From Bacteriovoracaceae bacterium (GTDB lineage Bacteria > Bdellovibrionota > Bacteriovoracia > Bacteriovoracales > Bacteriovoracaceae), in assembly GCA_017858255.1 (NCBI GenBank), contig JAFMBV010000015.1:1-54138 (forward strand): a stretch of DNA of 54,138 nucleotides, in the 5' to 3' direction. Both the position numbers and the translations under genes were made by a program. Each line of letters begins with the position of its first letter. Positions within the stretch are counted from its first letter, which is position 1. This document shows, piece after piece, positions 29,694 to 33,252 of the stretch. Below the pieces are notes generated by a model that worked only from the letters and a program-made list of their open reading frames with translations, was not told where the DNA came from and searched no databases.

Positions 29694-30860
29694 TTAAAGC
29701 ATTAACCACCAAAGGTTGTCCTCATTTTTGTCACCAAGCTGGAAAAGCTCATAGAGGGTACCTTCTGTGGAATAACCAGTGTTAAGAACTTCGGTAAAGA
29801 ACTCTCTTTTCATTTGAAAATCCGCCCTTAAAAAGGAGCTTTCTTTGTCTGCTAAATTCTTTTTAATTTTTGGTAAGGAAGCAGCACGAAGGACAGTGTA
29901 GCGATCCACTAAGTTTTTCCTCTTCCACATCTTTAATAATTTTTTGATGATTTCATTTCGCCTATTTTCATCAGCTGGAAAGAAATACTCAAAGACCCAC
30001 ATTTGGCCTGGACGAGCTTTTAAAAGTGATCTCTTTGAAATCGCTTTTCTAAAATTTTGGCGAAGTTCTGTATCTGAGGTTCTATTCATCATAATGAGAT
30101 ACCAAAAATCAAAATATTCACTTTTTAATAATGGATTTTTAAATTTACTTCTGATTTCTGTTAGAGACCAGTCGGCGTTAAGTTGACTCTTTATCAGTCT
30201 AAAGTCATTCGTATGACCAATTTGAGCAAAACGTTCAGCCAAAATCTTAACATCTTCCGAGTCTTCAAAAACTTCTTGATATTGAGTTAAAGCATAGAGA
30301 ATAAAGTCTCTAATCATGATTTCTTCTTCATGAGTGAACGAAATGGATTTGATTAAATTCCAATAGGGTGATGATTTTGCCAATTCTCTCTTCAGCTCTA
30401 GGGCCCAAGGCAGATTCTTGGCCTTAATCGCTAAAGAGAATGAAAACAACTGACGCCAAAATTCATGTCCAATATTCTTGACTCGATCAAAGACGACTTG
30501 CCTTTCACCTGGAGATTTAAGAGAATCCTCTTTTTTTAAAGTCTCTAATAGTTCTAAAATGACGACTTTTTTACTACTAAGATATTTTTTTTGACGGAAA
30601 GTACTTTGAATTCTTAGTCTTCTTTTTAAAGGAAGACCGTTTTCCTTTAGGTACTTACCTACTTCCACGATTTCCCCAAGAAAGGGAAAGAACATCATCA
30701 CCTTCATCTGATCACTTAAATTTTGAGAACATTTGGCAAAGTAATCTTTTAGGAGCTCCCTCTTGCCTCTTCTCAAGGTAATTAAAACACCCATTTTGAA
30801 GAGGTAATCATCTAATGCTGCACATTTCCCTAGGTCTTTGAACTCTGGTTGATCAAACAC
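29694..30860 (-). CDS. helical protein, probably the -1 frame continuation of the GYF_2 membrane gene
   Basis: At least 388 aa, almost all helix, rich in Lys, Phe and Leu, resembling a helical-repeat protein; family not recognised. The first available start, GTG 30860, has no ribosome-binding site and is preceded by 24 in-frame sense codons of coding-like sequence (NLHSLNSLSNEF and on) that reach back to an A10 run at 30940-30931. The frame is closed just upstream of that run (TAA at 30941-30939). A -1 slip on the A-run would fuse the GYF_2 membrane protein to this one, giving about 730 aa with this part outside the inner membrane. Alternatively it is a separate gene, or the A-run is miscounted. 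Confidence 0.7.
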   Translation of the reverse strand: MFDQPEFKDLGKCAALDDYLFKMGVLITLRRGKRELLKDYFAKCSQNLSDQMKVMMFFPFLGEIVEVGKYLKENGLPLKRRLRIQSTFRQKKYLSSKKVVILELLETLKKEDSLKSPGERQVVFDRVKNIGHEFWRQLFSFSLAIKAKNLPWALELKRELAKSSPYWNLIKSISFTHEEEIMIRDFILYALTQYQEVFEDSEDVKILAERFAQIGHTNDFRLIKSQLNADWSLTEIRSKFKNPLLKSEYFDFWYLIMMNRTSDTELRQNFRKAISKRSLLKARPGQMWVFEYFFPADENRRNEIIKKLLKMWKRKNLVDRYTVLRAASLPKIKKNLADKESSFLRADFQMKREFFTEVLNTGYSTEGTLYELFQLGDKNEDNLWWLML

Positions 30861-30916
30861 AATGCCACTAAAACTTAGATGAGTTGGTATAGTTATGAAT
30901 TCATTTGAGAGACTAT

Positions 30917-31888
30917 TTAAGGAATGAAGGTTTTTTTTTTACTAAGACTTTGAATCGTCTGTGCATGAGCTTCTTGCATTCCAATTATTGGAATTGGTTT
31001 GTTTAAAACTGCTTTGTAATAATAGATGACAAAACCTATGGCCACGACAATAAAGAAAGCAATATAGAGGAGATAACGATCATTTCCTTTTCTTTCGGTT
31101 ATGACTTTACGTCTCTTCTTAACTTTTTTCTTATTGCCTACATTTTTCTTTTTAGGAAGTTCTTCTGCGAGCTCTTCCTCATGATGATCAAGAGGTTGTT
31201 CTTCATATGACTCTTCAATCAGCGAAGCCTCGATAGGGATTTTGACATTTGGATCCGTGATGTCTTCTTCCACTTCTTCAATAAAATCCCCTTCGACCTC
31301 TGGGTATTCTAAATCATCTTCTTCGGGATATAGATAGTTCTCTTCCTCATCTGATGATGAATCCTCAAGACCCTCTTTGGGTATCATAGGCTCAGAAAGA
31401 TTTTTATCTAATAGGTCCTTACCTACTTCAATTTCAGCTGTCTCGTTGGCCTCAATTTCCCCACTATCGAGTAGTGGATCAGTTGCCTCGAAATTATCAG
31501 GAGTCGAGTCAGGATAATCTAAATCATCCATATCAGGGTAGGCCAAGTCATCTTGATCTGGGAGTTGATTAGTATCAGTCTCAGTAGACTTTGCCTTGGC
31601 CCTTTGAGGGCTTTCTAAAACAGAAGCAGTAACGCCGTCTGGAGAACTTTTTGCTGTTAGAACGTCTTGTGCTTCACTTATAGGATTAAAAGTTTGCGGA
31701 AGATCGCCATAAAGATATTTTTCTAATAGGTCTTTTTCTCTAACCCAAACCCAATAGCCATTACCACAGGTAATTTCATCATCGTTAGTGAGGCTTCCCT
31801 TTTCAATTAGCTCAATAACCTTCTCCTTGGTCGCAGGACCAAGGATCTGTTTATTTTTTGTTCTAATAAGCCAATTTTTTAAAGTCAA
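30917..31888 (-). CDS. GYF_2 domain membrane protein
   Basis: A 323-aa protein starting at TTG 31888, two bases after mlaD. Residues 1-55 are a GYF_2 module (NWLIRTKNKQILGP, then GNGYWVWVREKDLL). A long acidic linker follows with repeats of the YPDMDDLDYPDS and YPEEDDLEYPEV type, then a Lys/Arg patch and one transmembrane helix near residues 275-295 (LYIAFFIVVAIGFVIYYY). Only about 30 residues remain outside the membrane, ending at an A10 run (KKKTFIP then stop). The layout resembles cytoplasmic-adaptor proteins of the Myxococcus GltJ kind. It is in the alr-mlaEFD operon, but a role in lipid transport is unproven. Confidence 0.85.
   Translation of the reverse strand: MTLKNWLIRTKNKQILGPATKEKVIELIEKGSLTNDDEITCGNGYWVWVREKDLLEKYLYGDLPQTFNPISEAQDVLTAKSSPDGVTASVLESPQRAKAKSTETDTNQLPDQDDLAYPDMDDLDYPDSTPDNFEATDPLLDSGEIEANETAEIEVGKDLLDKNLSEPMIPKEGLEDSSSDEEENYLYPEEDDLEYPEVEGDFIEEVEEDITDPNVKIPIEASLIEESYEEQPLDHHEEELAEELPKKKNVGNKKKVKKRRKVITERKGNDRYLLYIAFFIVVAIGFVIYYYKAVLNKPIPIIGMQEAHAQTIQSLSKKKTFIP
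30931..30940 (-). promoter_or_regulatory. A10 slippery run (candidate frameshift or transcriptional slippage site)
   Basis: Ten consecutive A on the coding (minus) strand, read AAA AAA AAA Acc in the GYF_2 gene frame. The gene stops 12 nt beyond it; the -1 frame stays open through the next gene. Tandem Lys codons allow tRNA re-pairing, and runs of this length also cause RNA polymerase slippage. Confidence 0.55.
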
Positions 31889-31890
31889 TT

Positions 31891-33252
31891 CTAATTTCCA
31901 CCCAAGAAAAGTCCAAGTAATCCACGAATATCTTCATCAGTGAATTTAAGACCTAAACTGATTGTTGCGCTCCCCACACCCTCTTCAAGCATATCTTCAA
32001 GTCGAACTCTACCGTAAAGAACATTATAGAGCTGATGCTCAGCTGAAAACCTAACATTGGCACCAACCTCTTTACGATAGTCATAAACATCAAGAGAGAA
32101 CTTTGAACCCCAATCATTGAGTTCATAATCTACGCCAAAGCCACCAGTTGATTGAATTAAACCACCACGAAGAACCCAATTGTGAATGTGTCTCCCCATT
32201 TGAACGTTGAAGAGATAGCTGTTCTTATTCTGTATAGAACGAACCTCAGTAGACTTTAGGCCATTAACGTCTGTTTGAATAATACTCTCGTTTTCTAAAC
32301 CAAACTCACTTGTAACAACTCCAACCTCGTAGAATCTTTCTGGAGAGGGATAGAGCCTCAAGTTAAAGTTTGACTCACTCCCATATAATGTATTCGCCCC
32401 AGTGTACATTTCCATCTCAGTTCGAAGATTGTTTACTCTGGTGACGAGTTGGCGAACACCTGAAAGGGTTTGGCGAACTTCGTCAGCAATTTGCTCTTCA
32501 ACAAAAAGCTTACCCATGGTTCCCTTACCTGCTTTCAGGTCACTCATAACTTTTTCAAGATCTGCAGAAATCGTTTTAGCATTCCCAAGGATTTTCTGAA
32601 CATCTGCCATAGCAGAGTCAGAATTTTTATTATTCGCCTGATAAGCAATATCAGAAGAGAATTCATTTAAGTTCGCTATGATATCGTTAATCTTGTCTTC
32701 ATTTCCTTGCATTATTCTACCGAGAGACTCTGTCGTTTTCCTAAGTTCTGATAAGATTATTGTCAATGGCGGCTTTTCATTTGTAGGAGCGAAACTCTCT
32801 TTAAGAGAGCCAACAATCGCCTTAACGTCTTTAAGAACAGTAGAGGCATCCTTTACAAGGTCCTCTATTCCTCCTCCTTCATGAGCAGGAATAAAACCAT
32901 TCTCAGCCAGTCTATCAGTTTCTTCACCTACAACGATCTCAAGGTACTTATCCCCCAAGAAGCCAACGGTCTTTATTTTAAGCTTAGAATCTTTAGTGAC
33001 TGTTACCTTTTCAAGAACTTCAAAAGTAATGATGGCATTATTATCAGCAAGAGCAATTTCTTTAATCCTACCAGCATTGATACCAGCGACTCTTATTGGT
33101 GTCTTAGGAAAGATACCAGAAGCATCCTTAATGATTGTTCTATAAGTAATGTACTCGCCAAAACCAGACTGGTTTGACGTTATCTTGATGGACATAATAA
33201 CAACCGCTGCCATGGTCGCTAATGCCAAGAGGCCTACTTTTAGTTCATTCAT
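31891..33252 (-). CDS. mlaD: MlaD-type MCE lipid-binding protein with C-terminal beta-rich extension
   Basis: Periplasm-facing lipid carrier anchored by an N-terminal helix (VGLLALATMAAVVIMSI). Residues about 35-115 are the MCE domain (DASGIFPKTPIRVAGINAGRI, split VRVAGI/GRI-like core, then VGFLGDKYLEI). A long coiled-coil/helical stretch follows to about 285, as in hexameric needle-forming MCE proteins. The last 170 residues alternate hydrophobic and polar positions with aromatic ends (FNLRLYPSPERFYEVGVV, WVLRGGLIQSTGGFGVDY), which suggests beta-barrel-like or outer-membrane strands, far beyond the 180-aa E. coli MlaD. It is cotranscribed with mlaF and mlaE. Confidence 0.88.
   Translation of the reverse strand: MNELKVGLLALATMAAVVIMSIKITSNQSGFGEYITYRTIIKDASGIFPKTPIRVAGINAGRIKEIALADNNAIITFEVLEKVTVTKDSKLKIKTVGFLGDKYLEIVVGEETDRLAENGFIPAHEGGGIEDLVKDASTVLKDVKAIVGSLKESFAPTNEKPPLTIILSELRKTTESLGRIMQGNEDKINDIIANLNEFSSDIAYQANNKNSDSAMADVQKILGNAKTISADLEKVMSDLKAGKGTMGKLFVEEQIADEVRQTLSGVRQLVTRVNNLRTEMEMYTGANTLYGSESNFNLRLYPSPERFYEVGVVTSEFGLENESIIQTDVNGLKSTEVRSIQNKNSYLFNVQMGRHIHNWVLRGGLIQSTGGFGVDYELNDWGSKFSLDVYDYRKEVGANVRFSAEHQLYNVLYGRVRLEDMLEEGVGSATISLGLKFTDEDIRGLLGLFLGGN

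Follow-up and report, generated by a model that had tools for sequence, protein, structure and literature searches.

In a member of the Bacteriovoracaceae, the gene for a GYF_2-like membrane protein stops shortly after a run of ten consecutive A, and the -1 frame beyond this run stays open for several hundred codons. How is this second frame expressed, and is the stop after the tract damage or part of how the gene works? The window analyzed here is a 54,138-nt stretch of DNA from Bacteriovoracaceae bacterium (assembly GCA_017858255.1, contig JAFMBV010000015.1; genome G000, 4.08 Mb), and the locus lies on its minus strand. The features of the locus are as follows.

31891..33252, minus strand: mlaD, directly upstream; its stop lies 2 nt before the TTG of the GYF_2 gene (31886-31893)
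31888-30917, minus strand: ORF 1, 323 aa, TTG start; the putative unslipped short product
31658..31873, minus strand: GYF_2-like domain (WLIRTKNKQILGP...), A2 family; 11 invariant residues in 54 relatives
31290-31570, minus strand: acidic linker
31017..31073, minus strand: membrane helix YLLYIAFFIVVAIGFVIYY, with a basic stretch in front
30958..30969, minus strand: AHAQ, the AxA|Q motif, about 7 residues ahead of the A10 tract
30940-30931, minus strand: A10 tract and candidate slippage site (site 2), exactly ten A
30917..30919, minus strand: TAA of the unslipped frame, 11 nt past the A10 tract
29694..30938, minus strand: ORF 2 in the -1 frame, 414 codons; helical two-cysteine domain

The protein encoded by ORF 1 comprises, in this order, a GYF_2-like cytoplasmic domain, an acidic linker with DLEYPD-type motifs, a basic stretch, one membrane helix, the AxA|Q motif and KKK before the stop, and its end reads ...QSL AGT AAA AAA AAA ACC TTC ATT CCT TAA. 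The profile PF14237 matched the window protein weakly (17.9 bits, E 0.0028, under the curated cut-off of 25.8) and matched 49 of 54 relatives at E-values of up to 1, the best being 4.5e-5. Because a basic stretch precedes the membrane helix, the helix is probably oriented N-in/C-out, positive inside. The motifs DLEYPD and DDLAYPD are repeated in the acidic linker of many relatives (also L053-L131). GYF domains take proline-containing peptides as ligands, and an interaction of these motifs with the GYF_2 domain, either intramolecular or with a partner, is therefore possible. The gene mlaD directly precedes the GYF_2 gene in 82 of 85 loci; this adjacency and the 2-nt spacing suggest translational coupling inside the mla operon, and the proximity of mlaEFD suggests a link to the cell envelope.

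The original prediction had described the A10 tract as joining the membrane-protein gene to a -1 frame open for about 410 codons, and this was confirmed, with the stop 11 nt after the tract and 414 codons counted. In the -1 frame, AGT and AAA together form a TAA, immediately after which the frame is open as far as 29694. ORF 1 and ORF 2 share just 22 nt. As had also been stated, ORF 2 contains neither ATG nor TTG ahead of its first GTG (30860), and the 24-26 codons between the tract and this GTG are coding-like, differing from the nearest relative at 6, 2 and 11 sites in codon positions 1, 2 and 3, respectively. Within the tract, the heptamer A AAA AAA, which is of the X XXY YYZ slippery type, lies in frame. 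At a second position ahead of the membrane helix (site 1), the longest A-run in the window genome is 6, and the second tract found in relatives is absent.

Pattern searches identified 12 runs of A10 or longer in the whole genome, among which only the run at 30940-30931 joins two ORFs of more than 100 aa in different frames. Because only one of the 12 does so, the A-tract frameshift looks specific to the GYF_2 gene and not an expression of genome-wide tolerance. The genome contains 144 A9 runs where about 819 would be expected, the expectation being the dinucleotide-shuffle rate of the window scaled up to the whole genome; runs of at least nine A are thus depleted about six-fold. This depletion suggests that the polymerase of this bacterium does slip on them.

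We then compared the locus across the family. A profile search found the downstream domain in 81 of 129 family genomes, and about 80 regions were fetched; further named loci from Bacteriovoracaceae, Halobacteriovorax and Bacteriovorax, cultured isolates included, were collected with a GYF_2 profile. A total of 86 loci with both parts were analyzed, 83 of them non-split, with each species represented by one genome; L129 and L114 were left out. Membrane helices assigned in alternative frames were corrected by hand for L076, L078 and L229, as were the site-2 run of L061 and those of L065, L074 and L075, which had fallen inside the helical domain.

The same junction recurs across the family, which is what the comparison with related genomes suggested alongside the original prediction brought out. 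At site 2, 62 of the 86 loci require a -1 shift at a tract of A9-A14, 12 are fused in frame yet retain A9-A10, one requires +1 at A11 (G120), eight are in frame without a tract, and three have separate genes (a fourth split genome, G107, lies outside the set). The tract is thus kept in 75 of the 83 non-split loci, most often as A10 (55/75), and wherever the frames differ, as they do in 63 of these 83, the run is A9 or longer (63/63). All seven genomes of the window genus are in the -1 state, the six others sharing the 414-codon frame after A9 or A10, and the pattern also recurs where the downstream proteins are just 12-74% identical. Two loci additional to the 86, in which the GYF part is missing at contig ends (L011, L089), likewise show A9 or A10 and -1. 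The tract is also present in the cultured isolates Bacteriovorax sp. BSW11_IV and Halobacteriovorax marinus 36_234_T64. An assembly error, which the original prediction had kept as an alternative, is ruled out by this recurrence in dozens of species, cultured isolates included. On a tree of 84 divergent loci we counted about 12 phase changes at site 2 and about 8 at site 1; these counts are approximate, as the tree was built quickly and has several long branches. Two sister-species loci, L126 (A11, +1) and L232 (A10, -1), form a natural pair for the study of slippage ratios, and in L085 (G110) a (Q/R)SD tandem repeat occupies the linker immediately ahead of an out-of-frame A11 tract.

The position and composition of the tract are also unusual. 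Where the junction is -1, the unslipped frame ends close to the tract, its stop following at a median of 9 nt, compared with 20 nt at control positions (p=8e-5). The linker contains 2.07 tracts of A9 or longer per kb; the corresponding density is 0.073 for the helical domain and 0, over 102 kb, for the upstream gene. With lysine encoded by AAA in 67% of its codons, the naive probability of uninterrupted tracts in 75 loci is 10^-41.8, and for the 12 in-frame loci, where there is no frame to rescue, it is 10^-6.4; relatedness is ignored in both values.

Many relatives carry the second tract, at site 1. Runs of A9-A13 were found there in 46 of the 83 non-split loci; 38 of these are in frame, four need -1 and four need +1 (G148, G141, G081 and L219), and all eight loci with differing frames have A9 or longer. 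Each of G141, G081 and L219 has two out-of-frame tracts that divide the gene into three ORFs; the +1 shift and the -1 shift that follows it cancel out. Two fused loci that have lost the site-2 tract (G029, G032) retain A11 or A10 at site 1. Altogether, at least one tract of A9 or longer separates the GYF_2 domain from the helical domain in 81 of 83 loci, the exceptions being the sisters G023 and G150.

The AxA|Q motif lies 5-11 residues ahead of the site-2 tract in 65 of 72 loci, and most of the others carry an AxA|D/S/K variant. It is a likely signal-peptidase-I-type site, and the same AQ closes the signal-peptide-like stretch found where the helical domain is a separate gene. Cleavage at this motif is uncertain, however, because the median distance from the membrane helix to AxA is 23 residues, which exceeds that of ordinary signal peptides.

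The helical domain itself, predicted to be periplasmic, was modeled with AlphaFold2 from 76 sequences, giving a mean pLDDT of 95.8 and a pTM of 0.92. The model begins with a small region of strands at the N-terminus, after which comes a helical solenoid. An alignment of 21 sequences shows two invariant cysteines, and one is conserved at more than 90% in the 76. A Pfam search of the domain returned no convincing family. Foldseek searches with the model gave no convincing relative (best match E 0.049), and VIA-align returned nothing at Z 8; the weak structural matches suggest only a helical solenoid.

The history of the two modules indicates which product came first. Elsewhere in the phylum, 16 genomes of other families were examined. 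The GYF_2 homologue stands alone in 15 of them, is about 145-230 residues long, stops just past the membrane helix and has no A-tracts; the sole exception is the 678-aa protein of G212. Within the family, genus g15 has only the short GYF_2-membrane form, ending ...NKPLPV and a stop codon at a junction that carries no A-tract, and the helical domain was not found there in the profile search of the family genomes; loci were placed in g15 by inference from matching ORF lengths. Loci with the short form only are L197, L198, L199, L209, L210, L213, L215 and L223. Conversely, G033, G108, G075 and G107 have an individual gene for the helical domain, whose product opens with a signal-peptide-like stretch (e.g. 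MIKPILFCLLLLSTTIQA|Q); the gene preceding it in G033 stops ahead of any membrane helix. Because outgroups and g15 have the short form only, and the split genes have signal-peptide-like starts, we take the short product as most likely ancestral, with the long form added in Bacteriovoracaceae, and the domain as most likely an exported protein that the tract links to it.

Based on these comparisons of sequence, we consider it highly probable that programmed transcriptional slippage yields two proteins from this gene, the ancestral short form and a long form with a periplasmic helical domain. Transcribed as a single unit, the gene would contain two or three modules, with a slippage tract linking their reading frames. 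RNA polymerase would mostly copy A10 faithfully, giving a short protein that consists of the cytoplasmic GYF_2 domain, the acidic linker, the membrane helix and a brief tail in the periplasm. Some transcripts would gain one A (or lose two), which would give access to the -1 frame and add the helical periplasmic domain of about 410 residues. Tract length and phase would set the ratio of short to long form, with the short form as the main product of -1 alleles and the long form as that of fused alleles. A cut by signal peptidase at AxA|Q, just ahead of the tract, might then release the domain into the periplasm, and the arrangement as a whole may serve to determine how much membrane GYF_2 protein is made relative to its periplasmic partner within the mlaEFD operon. 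The original prediction of a slippage fusion with two products, the short one ending just outside the membrane, is supported by the junctions of the orthologues.

We are evenly divided over a broader reading. The tandem tracts at both module borders may give three co-expressed products (soluble GYF_2, membrane GYF_2 and full length) whose stoichiometry is set by slippage, and the whole family may have gained its periplasmic domain through a slippage tract on an old stand-alone membrane protein that is still the main product. A counterpoint to the two-product explanation is the genus of G023 and G150, which lives with a fused gene and no tract; the short form is therefore not indispensable everywhere.

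Transcriptional slippage is favored because the phases -1, 0 and +1 all occur among orthologues with tracts. Nine A is the common length at which selection against slippage becomes visible in bacterial genomes (PMC1088944), and the features associated with transcriptional realignment are present here, namely a tract of A9 or longer in a frame overlap, a conserved organization of tract and frames, and a shift direction that is not fixed, although -1 dominates at site 2. The same tract could instead act on the ribosome, as in the tRNA re-pairing originally proposed: two tRNA-Lys would re-pair one base back on A AAA AAA, and a homogeneous mRNA would give a fixed share of fusion protein. The heptamer is indeed part of every tract, and 62 of the 63 out-of-frame site-2 junctions need -1; an SD-like motif lies 5-20 nt upstream in 24% of loci versus 9% of controls, a modest excess of a motif that is not conserved. 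Seven A would suffice for such a mechanism, however, yet every out-of-frame tract has at least nine, and the tract persists in 12 alleles that need no shift at all. Furthermore, five junctions require +1 (that of G120 at site 2 and the four at site 1), which a mechanism confined to -1 does not explain, and the regions downstream give no stem-loop signal (z -0.22 versus 0.08 in control windows). Mixed shift directions among orthologues are a hallmark of transcriptional realignment (PMC3711429), and we regard ribosomal frameshifting as unlikely to be the main mechanism, though it may contribute. Less probable again is a contingency locus, the on/off tract of the original prediction, in which replication slippage would toggle the helical domain across the population. 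The homopolymer has a suitable length, three phases occur among orthologues and the sisters G120 and L232 differ; against this, the phases are very uneven (62 : 12 : 1), changes number about 12 on a deep tree, and fused alleles keep the tract too. All seven genomes of the window genus are in -1 with the domain conserved, and the domain must therefore be expressed from the -1 phase; we consider phase variation very improbable.

Two further explanations would leave the short form or the tract without a role. If the helical domain were a gene of its own, it would start at GTG 30860 or depend on reinitiation past the upstream stop, and both the small overlap of the ORFs and the four relatives with truly separate genes agree with this. 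A start codon (ATG, GTG or TTG) occurs within the first 25 codons in only 16 of 63 out-of-frame relatives, however, and an SD-like motif in 2, which refutes separate initiation as a general route. A domain started in this way would also miss the signal-peptide-like segment found in the true separate genes, and the A-tract would be left unexplained; we give this explanation almost no credence. Alternatively, leaky slippage might silently compensate for indels driven by the tract, and the short form would go unused, as in insect endosymbionts, where slippage on long poly(A) rescues broken genes (PMC5009743). The existence of phase changes and of fused alleles fits such tolerated damage. The out-of-frame configuration is nevertheless the preferred state and not a decayed one, and such tracts are rare genome-wide and concentrated in the linker. 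The short form stands alone in outgroups and one genus, and the genomes, at about 2-5 Mb, are not degenerate. We therefore consider tolerated damage quite unlikely, and programmed transcriptional slippage remains the preferred explanation.

The alleles in all phases, the gene splits, the domain losses and the outgroups with the ancestral short form constitute a natural series. Because this series exists, two open questions become testable, namely whether selection acts on slippage ratios and by what route a protein can acquire a new domain while keeping its old form. The case also bears on annotation, as pipelines may label such genes as truncated or as pseudogenes and thereby hide a conserved domain of 410 residues.

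To our knowledge, bacterial genes with transcriptional slippage are mostly those of IS elements, dnaX and scattered cases in single species. Programmed transcriptional realignment as such is already known; judged by the open literature that can be searched, what is new is the gene, the family-wide spread, the tandem tracts, the coexisting phases and the evidence for the ancestry of the short product. We found no report of slippage in Bdellovibrionota in the open-access literature. In the same phylum, Bd0075 of the predator Bdellovibrio bacteriovorus, which is listed as essential for predation, combines a GYF-like cytoplasmic domain with an extracytoplasmic TPR region (PMC12034629). The GYF_2 gene resembles it in layout, with a GYF-like cytoplasmic and a helical extracytoplasmic part, and for Bd0075 no slippage was found reported. 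In the type III secretion genes mxiE, spa13, spa33 and mxiA of Shigella, slippage likewise gives extended or truncated variants of envelope machinery; these proteins are unrelated and plasmid-borne, and tandem tracts were not found described for them (PMC5009743).

The closest parallels are dnaX and tssM. In dnaX of Thermus thermophilus and in those dnaX genes of other bacteria that are made of two ORFs, transcriptional realignment takes place at A9-A10 (PMC1088944, PMC3711429). The GYF_2 gene shares with them an A9-A10 tract near a stop, two C-terminal variants, and the occurrence of in-frame and two-ORF alleles depending on lineage. In contrast to the single tract of dnaX, it has up to two, it would give a membrane protein with or without a periplasmic domain, and its tract is kept across most of one family in all three phases. 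In tssM1 of Citrobacter rodentium, slippage of about 20-25% occurs at A11, both inner-membrane forms are needed, and one tssM allele slips to the long form and another to the short form (PMC4256274). Like this tssM1 and like tssM3 of Yersinia pseudotuberculosis (A11), the GYF_2 gene encodes an inner-membrane protein that would acquire its C-terminal domain through transcriptional slippage only. Whereas the tssM tracts are rare among orthologues, that of the GYF_2 gene is the rule in its family, lies beside an AxA|Q motif, and belongs to a protein whose short form most likely predates the fusion.
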